Below are positions 39,046 through 53,785 of a stretch of 64,000 nt of DNA, in pieces. The stretch comes from Chloroflexota bacterium (lineage in GTDB: Bacteria > Chloroflexota > Anaerolineae > Aggregatilineales > Ch27): contig JAIOAT010000015.1 in assembly GCA_019873685.1 (NCBI GenBank), forward strand, positions 1 through 64,000, written 5' to 3'. A program made the translations under genes and the position numbers. Numbering within the stretch: position 1 is the first letter of the stretch; each line of letters begins with the position of its first letter. The notes under the pieces were generated by a model. It was given only the letters and a program-made list of their open reading frames with translations. It did not search any database and was not told where the DNA came from.

Positions 39046-39651
39046 ATGCGGAGAAAGCCCATCGTGCCCAGCAAAATCAAATCCTCACGCCGCACTCCTG
39101 CCACCGGCCTCCGCCGCTATCTGACGGTTGAACGCGTCGTCATCGGCGGCGCGGTTGGTTTCACCATCCTCTTCCTGGCCGCGATGGTGATGGGCAGCGT
39201 CGTCAACGCGCCGCCTGATGTCAACCTGGCCGCCGTGCCTGATAACAGCCAGGCCTTCCCCATCCAGAGTCGCGAACACATTCAGCCGGGCGCCCAGCAC
39301 CCGCCCTACAACTCCAACCCACCGACCGGCGGCTGGCACTACGCTCAGACAGCCCGCACCGGCGTCTACACGGAAGCACTGGCGGATGAAACGCTGGTGC
39401 ACAACCTGGAGCACGGGCATGTCTGGCTATCCTACCGGGACGCTGATGATGAAGAAGCGCTGGCCGTCCTGCGCGATCTGCAACGTTTTTACCCGGACTA
39501 CGTGATCGTCACCCACCGCCCGCAGAACGATACCCGTATCGCCGCAGCGGCCTGGGGGCGGTTGTTGACGCTGGACGAGCCGGATGTGGCCCAGTTGCAG
39601 GCCTTCGTCGTGCGTTACCGTGAGCGCGCACCGGAGAACATTCCGGGGTAG
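39046..39651 (+). CDS. DUF3105 membrane-anchored protein
   Basis: 201 residues; ATG at 39046 or possibly GTG at 39064. One N-terminal helix (about 29-50) anchors an extracytoplasmic domain with the DUF3105 core: YNSNPPTGGWHYAQ and HNLEHGHVWLSY. Conserved His residues suggest metal binding, but no activity is known. Such proteins are frequent in Actinobacteria and Chloroflexota. Confidence 0.85.
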   Translation: MRRKPIVPSKIKSSRRTPATGLRRYLTVERVVIGGAVGFTILFLAAMVMGSVVNAPPDVNLAAVPDNSQAFPIQSREHIQPGAQHPPYNSNPPTGGWHYAQTARTGVYTEALADETLVHNLEHGHVWLSYRDADDEEALAVLRDLQRFYPDYVIVTHRPQNDTRIAAAAWGRLLTLDEPDVAQLQAFVVRYRERAPENIPG

Positions 39652-49961: not shown

Positions 49962-50018
49962 TAAACAGCGGACATGAAGCGGGAAGCCGCTGGCGCAGGC
50001 CACCTGTCAGGAGCGTGA

Positions 50019-52151
50019 ATGATGAAGCGAAAGATGTTATGGGTGGCCCCGGCCTGTCTGCTGGCGGCATTGGTGATCATCCCGGTGGCAGCTCAACCTG
50101 ATGGCCCGACCGGCCAGACCCCCTGGGACCTGCGCAATCTACCACAGGAAGGGGTGTTCGTGTTCTATGACGCGCCCCTGCAGGCCGCCCAGACCGGCAA
50201 ACCGGTCGACGCGGGCGACTTTGACGGCGATGGCTGCGGCGACCTGGCGATCACCGGCCAGAACGCCAGCCATACGGTGGGCGGCTCCTGGCGCAATGGC
50301 AACGGGCATATCCGGCTGCTCTTTGGCCTGTGTCGTGCAGCCACCGACCGGATCGCCATGGAGGATGTGCTGGCTGGCCGGGCCGAACTGCCCCTGCCGC
50401 TGGTCACGATCTACGGGGCGCGGGCGGGCGATATGGCCGGGACGGAGACGCACATCGCCGACTTCAACGGCGACGGCTACGACGACCTGCTCGTCAGCGC
50501 CCAGAACCATGACGGGCCGGGGCAGGTGCGCGTCAATGCCGGGGCCGCTTACGTCATCTTCGGCGCGGCAGACCTGGCCGGGCGCGGCGACATCGACCTG
50601 GCCGAACCGCCGGAAGGCGTCCTGACAATCCTGGGCGACACCGACGGCGATCACTTTGGCATCTGGGTGGAAAGCGGCGACTTCGACGGCGACGGCCTGG
50701 AGGATATGCTGATCGGAGCCAACCAGGCCGATGGCATTGAGGAACGGCGGGCCAACGCCGGGGAAGCGTGGATCTTCTACGGCGCTGAGGACATCTTCGG
50801 AGCATATGGGAATGTGATCGACCTGCGCCAGCCGCCAGCCAGCGCCACGCGCCTGATCGGGGCCGACTACGATGACCTGTTCGGCTCGACGGTCTTCGGC
50901 GGTGATCTGGACGGTGACGGCATCGATGACGCCGTAATCAGCGCGGCGTTGTGGCGCGGCTCAGCGGGCGTAGGCGGGCTATCCTTCGGCGGCGGCGACG
51001 GCCCCGGCAACAGCCGCTACAACGCCGGGGACACCTACGTGATCTTCGGGCGGCCTGATCTGCGCGGTCAGACGCTGGACATGGCTGCCCTGCTGACCGG
51101 CGCCGGACGCCCGGTTGACAGTAGCCTGACCGTGATCTATGGCGCGGGACCAAACGATCTGCTCGGCGAGGAGATCGCCATCGGTGATCTCAACGGCGAC
51201 GGGCGCAACGACCTGGTGCTGGGCACGCTGGTCGGCTACGGGCCGGGCGATAGTCTGCCGGAAGCGGGCGAAGCGTGGGTAATCTACACGACGGCGTTCT
51301 TCCGGGGGCAGATGTTTGACCTGGCCAACCCGCCGCGCAGCGCGGTAGTGATCTACCCTGATCAGCCTTACAGCAAAGGCGGCGATACCATGAAGGTCGC
51401 CGACATCGACGGCGACGGCATCGCTGATCTGCTCTACGGCGCACCGGATTATGACCCGATCGGCTACGACCTGATCGTGCGGCGCAACGCCGGGCTGCTG
51501 GCCGTGATCTACGGGCAGAACGCTCCCCTGCCTTCCATAAACGGCCAAATCAGGCTGCCCTCGGCGCTGCCGGAAGGGTTGCGGGTGCACTACGTCATCG
51601 GCGCAGATCAGAACGACATGCTGGCCTATTCGATGGCCGTCTATGACGTCAGCGGCGACGGCGTGCCGGACATCATCCCCAACGCCATGGGCGGCGATGG
51701 CGCGTACAACACACTGACCAACGCCGGGGAGATCTACGTGATCGACGGCGCAGAGTTTGCTGATGTCACTCACGAATCCGCCGCCCTGCCCGCCGCCACG
51801 CTGCCCCCCGTGCCCACACCGACGCCGCAGCCGCTGCCCACGCTGACGATCGACATCAGCATGCCAGGCAGCGTGGAGGAGGGGCGGCGGTTGTACCGGA
51901 TGGCCTGCGCTGGCTGCCACGGTCTGAACGCAGACGGTGAGGGAGTAGGCGTCTCGCTGCGGGATACGCCATTCATGCGCGAGAACTCAGCGGAAGACCT
52001 GCTACGCTTCCTGCAGGTGGGCCGCAGCAGCGACGATCCGGCCAATACCACCGGCGTCGCCATGCCTGCTTACGGTGGACGCCCGGACTGGGGCGAGGCT
52101 GAATTGTGGGATGTGGTTGCCTACCTGCGTTACCTCAACGGGCTGGACTAG
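50019..52151 (+). CDS. FG-GAP beta-propeller fused to a c-type cytochrome
   Basis: 710 residues, ATG with AGGAG 5 bases upstream. A signal peptide (about 1-25, ending IPVAAQP) exports it. Seven FG-GAP calcium-loop motifs of the form D-x-[DNS]-G-D-G start near residues 67, 148, 222, 296, 390, 462 and 543, enough for a full seven-bladed propeller. After a Pro/Thr linker (about 590-612) comes a mono-haem cytochrome c domain: CAGCH at 630-634 and a likely axial Met at 682 (GVAMPAYGG). The propeller may bind a ligand or surface while the haem moves electrons. No close architecture comes to mind. Confidence 0.88.
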   Translation: MMKRKMLWVAPACLLAALVIIPVAAQPDGPTGQTPWDLRNLPQEGVFVFYDAPLQAAQTGKPVDAGDFDGDGCGDLAITGQNASHTVGGSWRNGNGHIRLLFGLCRAATDRIAMEDVLAGRAELPLPLVTIYGARAGDMAGTETHIADFNGDGYDDLLVSAQNHDGPGQVRVNAGAAYVIFGAADLAGRGDIDLAEPPEGVLTILGDTDGDHFGIWVESGDFDGDGLEDMLIGANQADGIEERRANAGEAWIFYGAEDIFGAYGNVIDLRQPPASATRLIGADYDDLFGSTVFGGDLDGDGIDDAVISAALWRGSAGVGGLSFGGGDGPGNSRYNAGDTYVIFGRPDLRGQTLDMAALLTGAGRPVDSSLTVIYGAGPNDLLGEEIAIGDLNGDGRNDLVLGTLVGYGPGDSLPEAGEAWVIYTTAFFRGQMFDLANPPRSAVVIYPDQPYSKGGDTMKVADIDGDGIADLLYGAPDYDPIGYDLIVRRNAGLLAVIYGQNAPLPSINGQIRLPSALPEGLRVHYVIGADQNDMLAYSMAVYDVSGDGVPDIIPNAMGGDGAYNTLTNAGEIYVIDGAEFADVTHESAALPAATLPPVPTPTPQPLPTLTIDISMPGSVEEGRRLYRMACAGCHGLNADGEGVGVSLRDTPFMRENSAEDLLRFLQVGRSSDDPANTTGVAMPAYGGRPDWGEAELWDVVAYLRYLNGLD

Positions 52152-52172: not shown

Positions 52173-53096
52173 TTATGGCGCAAAGCGCTCCCAGCGGGAA
52201 CGATCCCCGGCCAGGGCATAGATCTGACCATCTGAGCCGGTGAGGTAGATCGCGCCGCCACCCTGAGCGCCGGCCTGCTGAATGGTGGCCGTGTAGGCGT
52301 CTTCCCACTCACGCAATGCCCAGCCCAGCCGGTCGCGTACGGTCGGCGTGGTGCGCCAGAGCTGGCCAAAGCCCCGGCGCGGTTGTTGCCACAGGCCCTG
52401 CGGCCCGACGATCGAGAGATCGCGCTCCGGCATCCCCTCAACATAGGTGTCGTTATAACGCTCCCAGGCCGGCTGCTGGCCGTCAGCATATAGCACGTAG
52501 ATCATCCGGTCGACGCCCGTCCAGAACATCTGCCCGCGCTCAAAGGCCAGGGCCGCCGCCGGGGAACTGACCGCCGATGTCGCCGGGCAACTGCCCGGTT
52601 GCCGCGAACTGAAAAACCAGGGGTAAACACAGTTGCCGCTGGCATCCAGCGCGGCGGGTGGGGCGCTCACCGGGGCGCTGCTGCCGGGAGCCGGGTTGAC
52701 CTGCACCGGCACCACCGGGATCGGCGTGAACAGGGTGGGAGGCGGCAGCGGAGTCGGGAAGGGCGTCTGTGTCGGCGGCAAGGTCGGGGTTGGGCTGGGC
52801 GTTTCGCTCGGTGTGCTGGAAGGCGTCCAGGTGATCGTCGGTGTGCGGGTGGGCGGCAGGGTCGGCGTCACCAGGGCGATCGCCGTCTCAGCCACAAAAT
52901 CGGGTGTGGGCGGCGCCGGGGTGGGCGTTTCCGTCAGGGTGGGGATAGGCGTGATCGAGGGCAGGACAGCCACCGTCGGGATGAGCGCCGTGTCCTCCAC
53001 CAGGCGCGGGCCGCCCAATCGCCCGTTGCACCCGGTCATGATCAGCGCGGTGAGCGCCGCCACGATCAGCAGGGGAAAGCGTCTGGCTGTGGACAT
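52173..53096 (-). CDS. Lipoprotein with long Thr/Pro linker and a paralogous C-terminal domain
   Basis: 307 residues, ATG with AGGAG 5 bases upstream. The lipobox is LIMTGC. About 100 residues of Thr/Pro-rich linker (residues 38-140) precede a compact C-terminal domain with two cysteines (NCVYPWFF and GSCPATS), FERGQMFW, EGMPERD and LWQQPRRGFGQLWR. The same domain forms most of the next protein. No known family recognised. It converges with the cytochrome fusion gene. Confidence 0.85.
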   Translation of the reverse strand: MSTARRFPLLIVAALTALIMTGCNGRLGGPRLVEDTALIPTVAVLPSITPIPTLTETPTPAPPTPDFVAETAIALVTPTLPPTRTPTITWTPSSTPSETPSPTPTLPPTQTPFPTPLPPPTLFTPIPVVPVQVNPAPGSSAPVSAPPAALDASGNCVYPWFFSSRQPGSCPATSAVSSPAAALAFERGQMFWTGVDRMIYVLYADGQQPAWERYNDTYVEGMPERDLSIVGPQGLWQQPRRGFGQLWRTTPTVRDRLGWALREWEDAYTATIQQAGAQGGGAIYLTGSDGQIYALAGDRSRWERFAP

Positions 53097-53191: not shown

Positions 53192-53785
53192 TCAGCCCAG
53201 GAACGTGAACAGTTCCCAGATGCCCTCCGGGCCGGGGTGAAGCTGGTAGACCTTGTTATCGTCGCGCATGAAAAAGACGAGCGTGCCTTCCGGCGTTTCG
53301 GCCTTTTGTAGCCAGCCCTCGTAACTGGCTTCCCATTCTTCCAGCGCCCAGCCCAGCCGTGCGCTCACCGCAGCGTCCTGCCGCCAGAGCAGGCCAAAGC
53401 CACGGCGCGGCTGCTGCCACAGGCCTAGCGGCCCAACCAGACCTGCCTCGCGCTCCGGCATCCCTTCCAGGAAGGTGTCGGGGTAGCTGGCCCAGTACGG
53501 CGCCCGAAAATCGCGGAACAGGACGTAGATCGCCTGCTCCGCCTGAACCCAGATCATCTCGCCGCGCTCAAACTCCAGGCGGGCGAGATCGGTGGAGATC
53601 GGCGGGGTGCTGGGGCAGGCGTCCACCGGGCGGGCCTGCACCCCGAAGAACCAGTCGTACTGGCAGACGGCCTGAGCGGTATCCGCCGGGCTACCCGGCG
53701 CCGGACTGGCGGAAACCGCCAGCGGCTGCAGGACAGGCAGGGCCAGCAGCGCCAGACTCAGGATCAGCAAGCGGGTCACACGCAT
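53192..53785 (-). CDS. Secreted paralogue of the lipoprotein domain
   Basis: 197 residues, ATG with AAGGA 8 bases upstream. A signal peptide (about 1-26, ending AVSASPA) but no lipobox cysteine, so secreted rather than lipidated. The mature domain (VCQYDWFFG, DACPSTP, FERGEMIW, LEGMPERE, LWQQPRRGFGLLWR) aligns block by block with the C-terminal domain of the neighbouring lipoprotein. It lies 95 bases upstream of that gene, on the same strand. Function unknown. Confidence 0.85.
   Translation of the reverse strand: MRVTRLLILSLALLALPVLQPLAVSASPAPGSPADTAQAVCQYDWFFGVQARPVDACPSTPPISTDLARLEFERGEMIWVQAEQAIYVLFRDFRAPYWASYPDTFLEGMPEREAGLVGPLGLWQQPRRGFGLLWRQDAAVSARLGWALEEWEASYEGWLQKAETPEGTLVFFMRDDNKVYQLHPGPEGIWELFTFLG

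Follow-up and report, generated by a model that had tools for sequence, protein, structure and literature searches.

An FG-GAP beta-propeller joined to a class I cytochrome c: a conserved protein family of Aggregatilineales with a possible role in extracytoplasmic electron transfer

The DNA analysed here (the window, 64,000 nucleotides, positions 1 to 64,000 of the forward strand of contig JAIOAT010000015.1, assembly GCA_019873685.1) comes from a Chloroflexota bacterium of the order Aggregatilineales (Anaerolineae; Ch27), and carries at 50019-52151 a gene in which a seven-bladed FG-GAP propeller is fused to a cytochrome c. Sequence and structure prediction show its product as an exported propeller of integrin type, each blade with one calcium-type loop, followed by a Pro/Thr tether and a Met/His mono-haem cytochrome c. 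According to our sequence comparisons, the fusion is confined, among sampled Chloroflexota, to a single order, in which it forms a conserved family. That the protein works as a secreted electron-transfer subunit is the explanation we favour, and we hold the chances of its being right to be about evenly balanced. The features of the gene are as follows.

50019-52151 (+): whole gene, 710 amino acids, encoding a seven-bladed FG-GAP propeller with a fused cytochrome c (open reading frame, Pfam, orthologues, ratio of nonsynonymous to synonymous substitution rates, dN/dS)
50019-50096 (+): Sec-type signal peptide, residues 1-26, ending VIIPVAAQ, without lipobox (read from the sequence)
50097-51758 (+): predicted seven-bladed integrin-alpha-type beta-propeller, residues 27-580 (seven FG-GAP repeats, AlphaFold2 model, Foldseek, VIA-align)
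50217-50243 (+): calcium-type loop 1, DFDGDGCGD (motif, alignment)
50460-50486 (+): calcium-type loop 2, DFNGDGYDD (ligand pattern in 24/24 fused sequences)
50679-50705 (+): calcium-type loop 3, DFDGDGLED (motif, alignment)
50904-50930 (+): calcium-type loop 4, DLDGDGIDD (motif, alignment)
50943-51029 (+): long blade-4 loop ALWRxSxGxxGxxxGGxDGxxNxRYNxG, residues 309-337 (alignment)
51186-51212 (+): calcium-type loop 5, DLNGDGRND (motif, alignment)
51402-51428 (+): calcium-type loop 6, DIDGDGIAD (motif, alignment)
51645-51671 (+): calcium-type loop 7, DVSGDGVPD (motif, alignment)
51771-51869 (+): Pro/Thr-rich flexible linker, residues 585-617 (predicted local distance difference test score, pLDDT, largely below 50; raised dN/dS)
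51870-52148 (+): predicted class I mono-haem cytochrome c domain, residues 618-710 (PF13442/PF00034, CcoP profile match, model)
51906-51920 (+): haem-attachment motif CAGCH, residues 630-634 (C630, C633 and H634 invariant, 24/24)
52062-52064 (+): Met682, inferred sixth haem ligand, in AMP (M682-P683 invariant, 24/24)

The first-pass annotation had described this reading frame as seven FG-GAP repeats, a Pro/Thr linker and a mono-haem CAGCH domain with a candidate axial Met, and the open reading frame, Pfam and the alignment bear it out in every part. Pfam places FG-GAP (PF01839, 3.7e-36) over its cut-off in seven stretches of the protein, and two cytochrome c families over theirs (PF13442, 2.8e-10; PF00034, 3.8e-10). 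The D-x-[DNS]-G-D-G loops, one per repeat, start at residues 67, 148, 221, 296, 390, 462 and 543; shuffled sequences are expected to hold 0.04 of them, with no more than two in any of 5000, and the ligand pattern is kept at each of the seven positions in 23-24 of 24 fused sequences. Each propeller loop would bind one calcium. Homologues keep a hydrophobic N-terminus with the AQ end of the signal peptide, and reading of the 710 residues by eye found no lipobox, transmembrane helix or sorting signal. The sequence AGGAG stands just 5' of the frame (50009-50013); no sigma-70 promoter or terminator was found close to the gene.

The AlphaFold2 model of residues 27-710, based on an alignment of 31 family members, has a mean pLDDT of 83, with values mostly above 85 in the propeller, falling under 50 through the greater part of the linker, and intermediate in the cytochrome. 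Since integrin alpha heads rank first in the Foldseek search with the propeller model (E 1e-18) and VIA-align matches it to integrin alpha-V with Z 32.9 (390 residues aligned, 2.5 A), the predicted propeller is of integrin type. The full propeller supposed from the repeats alone is what structure prediction returned, with seven blades and integrin-head matches at Z of about 33. The cytochrome domain, modelled separately from 24 sequences, reached a pLDDT of 71, and its structure matches are cytochromes c, with the tethered domain of haem-Cu nitrite reductase at the head of the list (Z 9.3, a score shared by several others); a profile comparison of the sequence puts CcoP of cbb3 oxidase closest among solved proteins (2.1e-16). 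The CxxCH motif, the distal Met and the predicted fold identify it as a class I c-type cytochrome. No solved chain matched both halves of the protein.

The fusion was found in a single open frame in 25 of 151 Aggregatilineales genomes, that of the window included, at identity of at least 49%. The 24 aligned fused sequences all have C630, C633, H634 and M682-P683, and one of them departs from CAGCH at its two middle positions; two propeller cysteines, C73 and C105, are also invariant and possibly form a disulphide. Against an orthologue of 93% identity the window gene gives a dN/dS of 0.073 (propeller 0.057, cytochrome 0.089, linker residues 581-617 0.21); purifying selection is strong on both domains and relaxed on the linker. 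Because the fusion recurs in 25 of 151 relatives under such selection, it is a real gene, and we reject mis-assembly or chance joining, the only point in whose favour is that two relatives have a broken gene, as practically negligible. In these two the frame is split after blade 3 at nearly the same place (L072:6415-8516, - strand; L083:3415-5522, - strand), near short homopolymer runs, by sequencing error or by a real frameshift.

Outside the order the full-length fusion was not met. A protein query found none in 298 class and 400 phylum genomes, and a family profile applied to 396 class genomes scored at least 899 bits inside the order and then dropped to 145; the class and phylum samples overlap and were drawn rather than exhaustive, with two or three candidates scored per genome. 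Among 20 long-frame cytochrome matches outside the order, one calcium-type loop was the most that any sequence had, and its sole bearer (locus L103) resembles another propeller type. Plasmid records gave FG-GAP matches only, and a GTDB contig scan with a single-sequence query, which detects close relatives only, returned two members of the order, labelled Aggregatilineales and Ardenticatenia. The architecture had been flagged as one without a known parallel; this holds for the literature searched, in which no paper describes an FG-GAP/cytochrome c fusion, and does not hold in the sense of a singleton, given the 25 genomes of the order.

Eight homologues consist of the propeller only, and in the propeller tree they form one group inside the fused sequences (support 100/98). 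As they nest in this way, the group reads as a single loss of the cytochrome, the root of the tree not being established. Apart from the calcium-type loops, no segment of the propeller varies less among the 24 fused sequences than the blade-4 loop, residues 309-337, in which many positions are invariant; it is invariant in the propeller-only paralogues as well, with the exception of Y334. Its middle is poorly predicted in the AlphaFold2 model, and on the strength of the alignment we consider it a candidate patch for binding of a partner or ligand.

Informative neighbours are found in a second subfamily, whose FG-GAP/cytochrome c gene is the last in a cluster of conserved makeup. The first gene of the cluster encodes a DUF362 protein whose signal is twin-arginine-like; there follow a multihaem cytochrome (in most cases with five CxxCH motifs, and with a CarboxypepD_reg-like N-terminus under the Pfam cut-off), a partner protein in which a YVTN/YncE-type propeller is joined to a domain resembling cytochrome c peroxidase (CCP) and MauG, and the fusion itself. 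The propeller/CCP-like gene is present at 14 loci, at 13 of them directly upstream on the same strand with a gap of -32 to 77 nucleotides; at L072, the remaining locus, the first half of the broken FG-GAP gene intervenes. The pentahaem and DUF362 genes precede it at most loci with enough flanking sequence, L070 having the DUF362 gene alone of the two, and genes for cytochrome b, Rieske and tetrahaem cytochrome c proteins are close by at six loci. All eight propeller-only loci lack the cluster.

The propeller/CCP-like partner resembles hydrazine synthase beta-gamma. It matches the NCBIfam model NF052342 at 2.4e-35, far under the cut-off (at L060, 121.8 bits against the 1250 demanded by the curated beta-gamma model), and the chains of PDB 5c2v at 4.2e-19 (gamma) and 1.3e-12 (beta), its strongest solved match being an S-layer propeller. 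In five genomes the hydrazine synthase alpha model NF052339 gave weak partial matches, none over the cut-off, and for want of a convincing alpha subunit we rejected the cluster as a hydrazine synthase. The second haem motif of the partner is contracted to CxCH (CSCH, CGCH or CACH) in 11 of 14 sequences (L060:8642-10480 on the - strand, L061, L063-L067, L071, L072, L087 and L089) and is CxxCH in the other three; by its sequence CxCH may mark a haem site that is unusual or has been lost.

It is this conserved redox cluster in one subfamily that leads us to propose an electron-transfer subunit docked on an extracytoplasmic redox complex. Calcium would fill the loops and make the propeller stiffer. 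The conserved face of the propeller, chiefly the blade-4 loop, would dock onto a partner redox protein, and the tethered cytochrome could swing between the haem of this partner and an electron acceptor or donor, in the membrane or soluble, much as tethered cytochromes do in haem-Cu nitrite reductase and CcoP. In the cluster subfamily the partner would most likely be the neighbouring propeller/di-haem CCP-like protein, the relative of hydrazine synthase beta-gamma, together with the pentahaem cytochrome, and in some genomes the far end of the electron path may be the cytochrome b, Rieske and tetrahaem set. Calcium binding, docking, electron transfer and the identity of the partners are all suggested here by inference. 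A narrower proposal, that the family is the electron-transfer subunit of a hydrazine-synthase-related extracytoplasmic enzyme complex (propeller plus di-haem CCP-like protein, pentahaem cytochrome, DUF362) with an uncharacterised reaction in Chloroflexota, is possible and in our opinion rather doubtful.

Several observations weigh against an electron-transfer subunit. The cytochrome domain reaches moderate confidence at best in the predicted models, and one group of homologues keeps the propeller with no cytochrome at all; therefore the propeller has a job independent of the haem. The window copy and its nearest relatives (L055-L059) do not adjoin the redox cluster genes, and the pentahaem gene was not found in the genome of the window, which holds only a more distant propeller/CCP-like (di-haem) paralogue (L090:8907-10703, - strand). 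As the copy is unlinked to the cluster and this paralogue is only distant, any partner named for the window subfamily is a guess. Genes for the assembly of c-type cytochromes are present in the genome of the window, as are 13 matches to cytochrome c domains. Paired with the distant paralogue is a gene for a 1285-residue secreted protein without family match (L090:10700-14557, - strand), and a protein of similar size precedes the propeller/CCP-like paralogue also in L091, L093 and L096.

Other functions can be imagined for such a protein. Fusions of a propeller with a cytochrome are typical of quinohaemoprotein enzymes, and one could suggest a dehydrogenase-like enzyme whose propeller oxidises a bound substrate and whose cytochrome takes the electrons, by likeness to pyrroloquinoline quinone (PQQ) propellers or to catalytic VCBS/FG-GAP members such as rhamnogalacturonan lyase 11 and aldos-2-ulose dehydratase. 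The striking invariance of the blade-4 loop speaks for it, and the class relative L103 combines a propeller that looks by eye like sorbosone dehydrogenase with a C-terminal cytochrome c. However, the fold matches of our propeller are integrin heads, the searches reported neither a PQQ nor a flavin family in the window protein, and the propeller-only paralogues keep the blade-4 loop without any haem. PQQ- and d1-type propellers are outside the best fold matches, in a ranking that by itself excludes nothing, and none was over the Pfam cut-off. We regard an enzyme of this kind as unlikely.

The first-pass annotation had also offered an anchored electron-transfer protein or one making contact with minerals or cells, and of this proposal electron transfer fits the data better, while anchor and contact found no positive evidence. 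A surface adhesion protein that wires cells to one another or to minerals would agree with export, with the integrin-type fold and its calcium-type loop in every blade, and with some propeller-only paralogues being close to a sortase or L,D-transpeptidase gene. Against it, the window protein shows no anchor on reading by eye, one haem held by a short tether makes no long-range conduit, and the informative neighbours are extracytoplasmic redox proteins rather than adhesins or S-layer genes, which makes mineral or cell contact quite improbable. We give still smaller weight to a metal or redox maturation factor, in which the propeller would help to handle metals or thiols outside the cytoplasm, with the haem as sensor or supplier of redox state: the copper-type P-ATPase with HMA domains, YHS histidine kinase and TlpA-/DsbA-like thioredoxins that inspire it lie near propeller-only paralogues, which are one separate group without haem, and the fused members have different neighbours.

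Around those propeller-only paralogues (L074, L076, L079, L080, L081) the neighbours vary by locus, and include a heavy-metal P-type ATPase, a YHS-domain histidine kinase, TlpA-/DsbA-like thioredoxins, DUF3105, sortase and L,D-transpeptidase; in the window, the N-terminus encoded at 39046-39651 (+) looks like that of the DUF3105 protein. Around the window gene itself lie genes for an ABC-type ATPase (read from sequence), a protein without assigned family and a methyltransferase; on the opposite strand are those for two related secreted proteins in tandem (52173-53096 and 53192-53785, both -), with no Pfam family over cut-off and a partial relative in L077. Members of the genus share this gene order, and beyond the genus the subfamily of the window showed no neighbours in common.

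Bacterial integrin-type seven-bladed propellers with one calcium site per repeat have been described (Chouhan et al. 2011, PMC3192720). Our family shares their predicted fold and their seven FG-GAP repeats with a DxDxDG-type site in each, and differs by the attached cytochrome c, the text of PMC3192720 making no mention of cytochrome or heme. With the Ralstonia pickettii haem-Cu nitrite reductase and CcoP of cbb3 oxidase it has in common the class I cytochrome c domain, which there belongs to a cupredoxin enzyme or an oxidase subunit and here to an FG-GAP propeller. Beta-propeller and cytochrome c also stand in one chain in cytochrome cd1 (NirS/NirN) and in quinohaemoprotein dehydrogenases, and, judged by sequence, such fusions are found again in the class with propellers of other types, as in L103 (2345-4129, - strand), which is membrane-anchored. 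The propellers of all these are of other families, several with bound cofactors, and none is among the best fold matches here. Both modules are known, then, as are cytochrome fusions with other propellers; the FG-GAP/integrin-type version is new, and in it the adhesion fold of animal integrins is joined to an electron carrier.

We know of no established reaction for hydrazine-synthase relatives outside anammox bacteria. In non-anammox clades I-III a separate FG-GAP gene, annotated as CRTAC1, adjoins homologues of hydrazine synthase alpha and of fused beta-gamma (PMC12758564, 2025). The likeness to our cluster is one of outline, an FG-GAP gene beside a beta-gamma-like gene; unlike those clusters, ours has an FG-GAP protein with a haem of its own, alpha was not found, and pentahaem and DUF362 genes join. 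The FG-GAP genes beside such clusters are on record from other phyla with no role assigned, and the version with its own haem suggests electron transfer. If the protein is indeed an electron-transfer subunit, this would give a concrete role to cluster-linked FG-GAP proteins.
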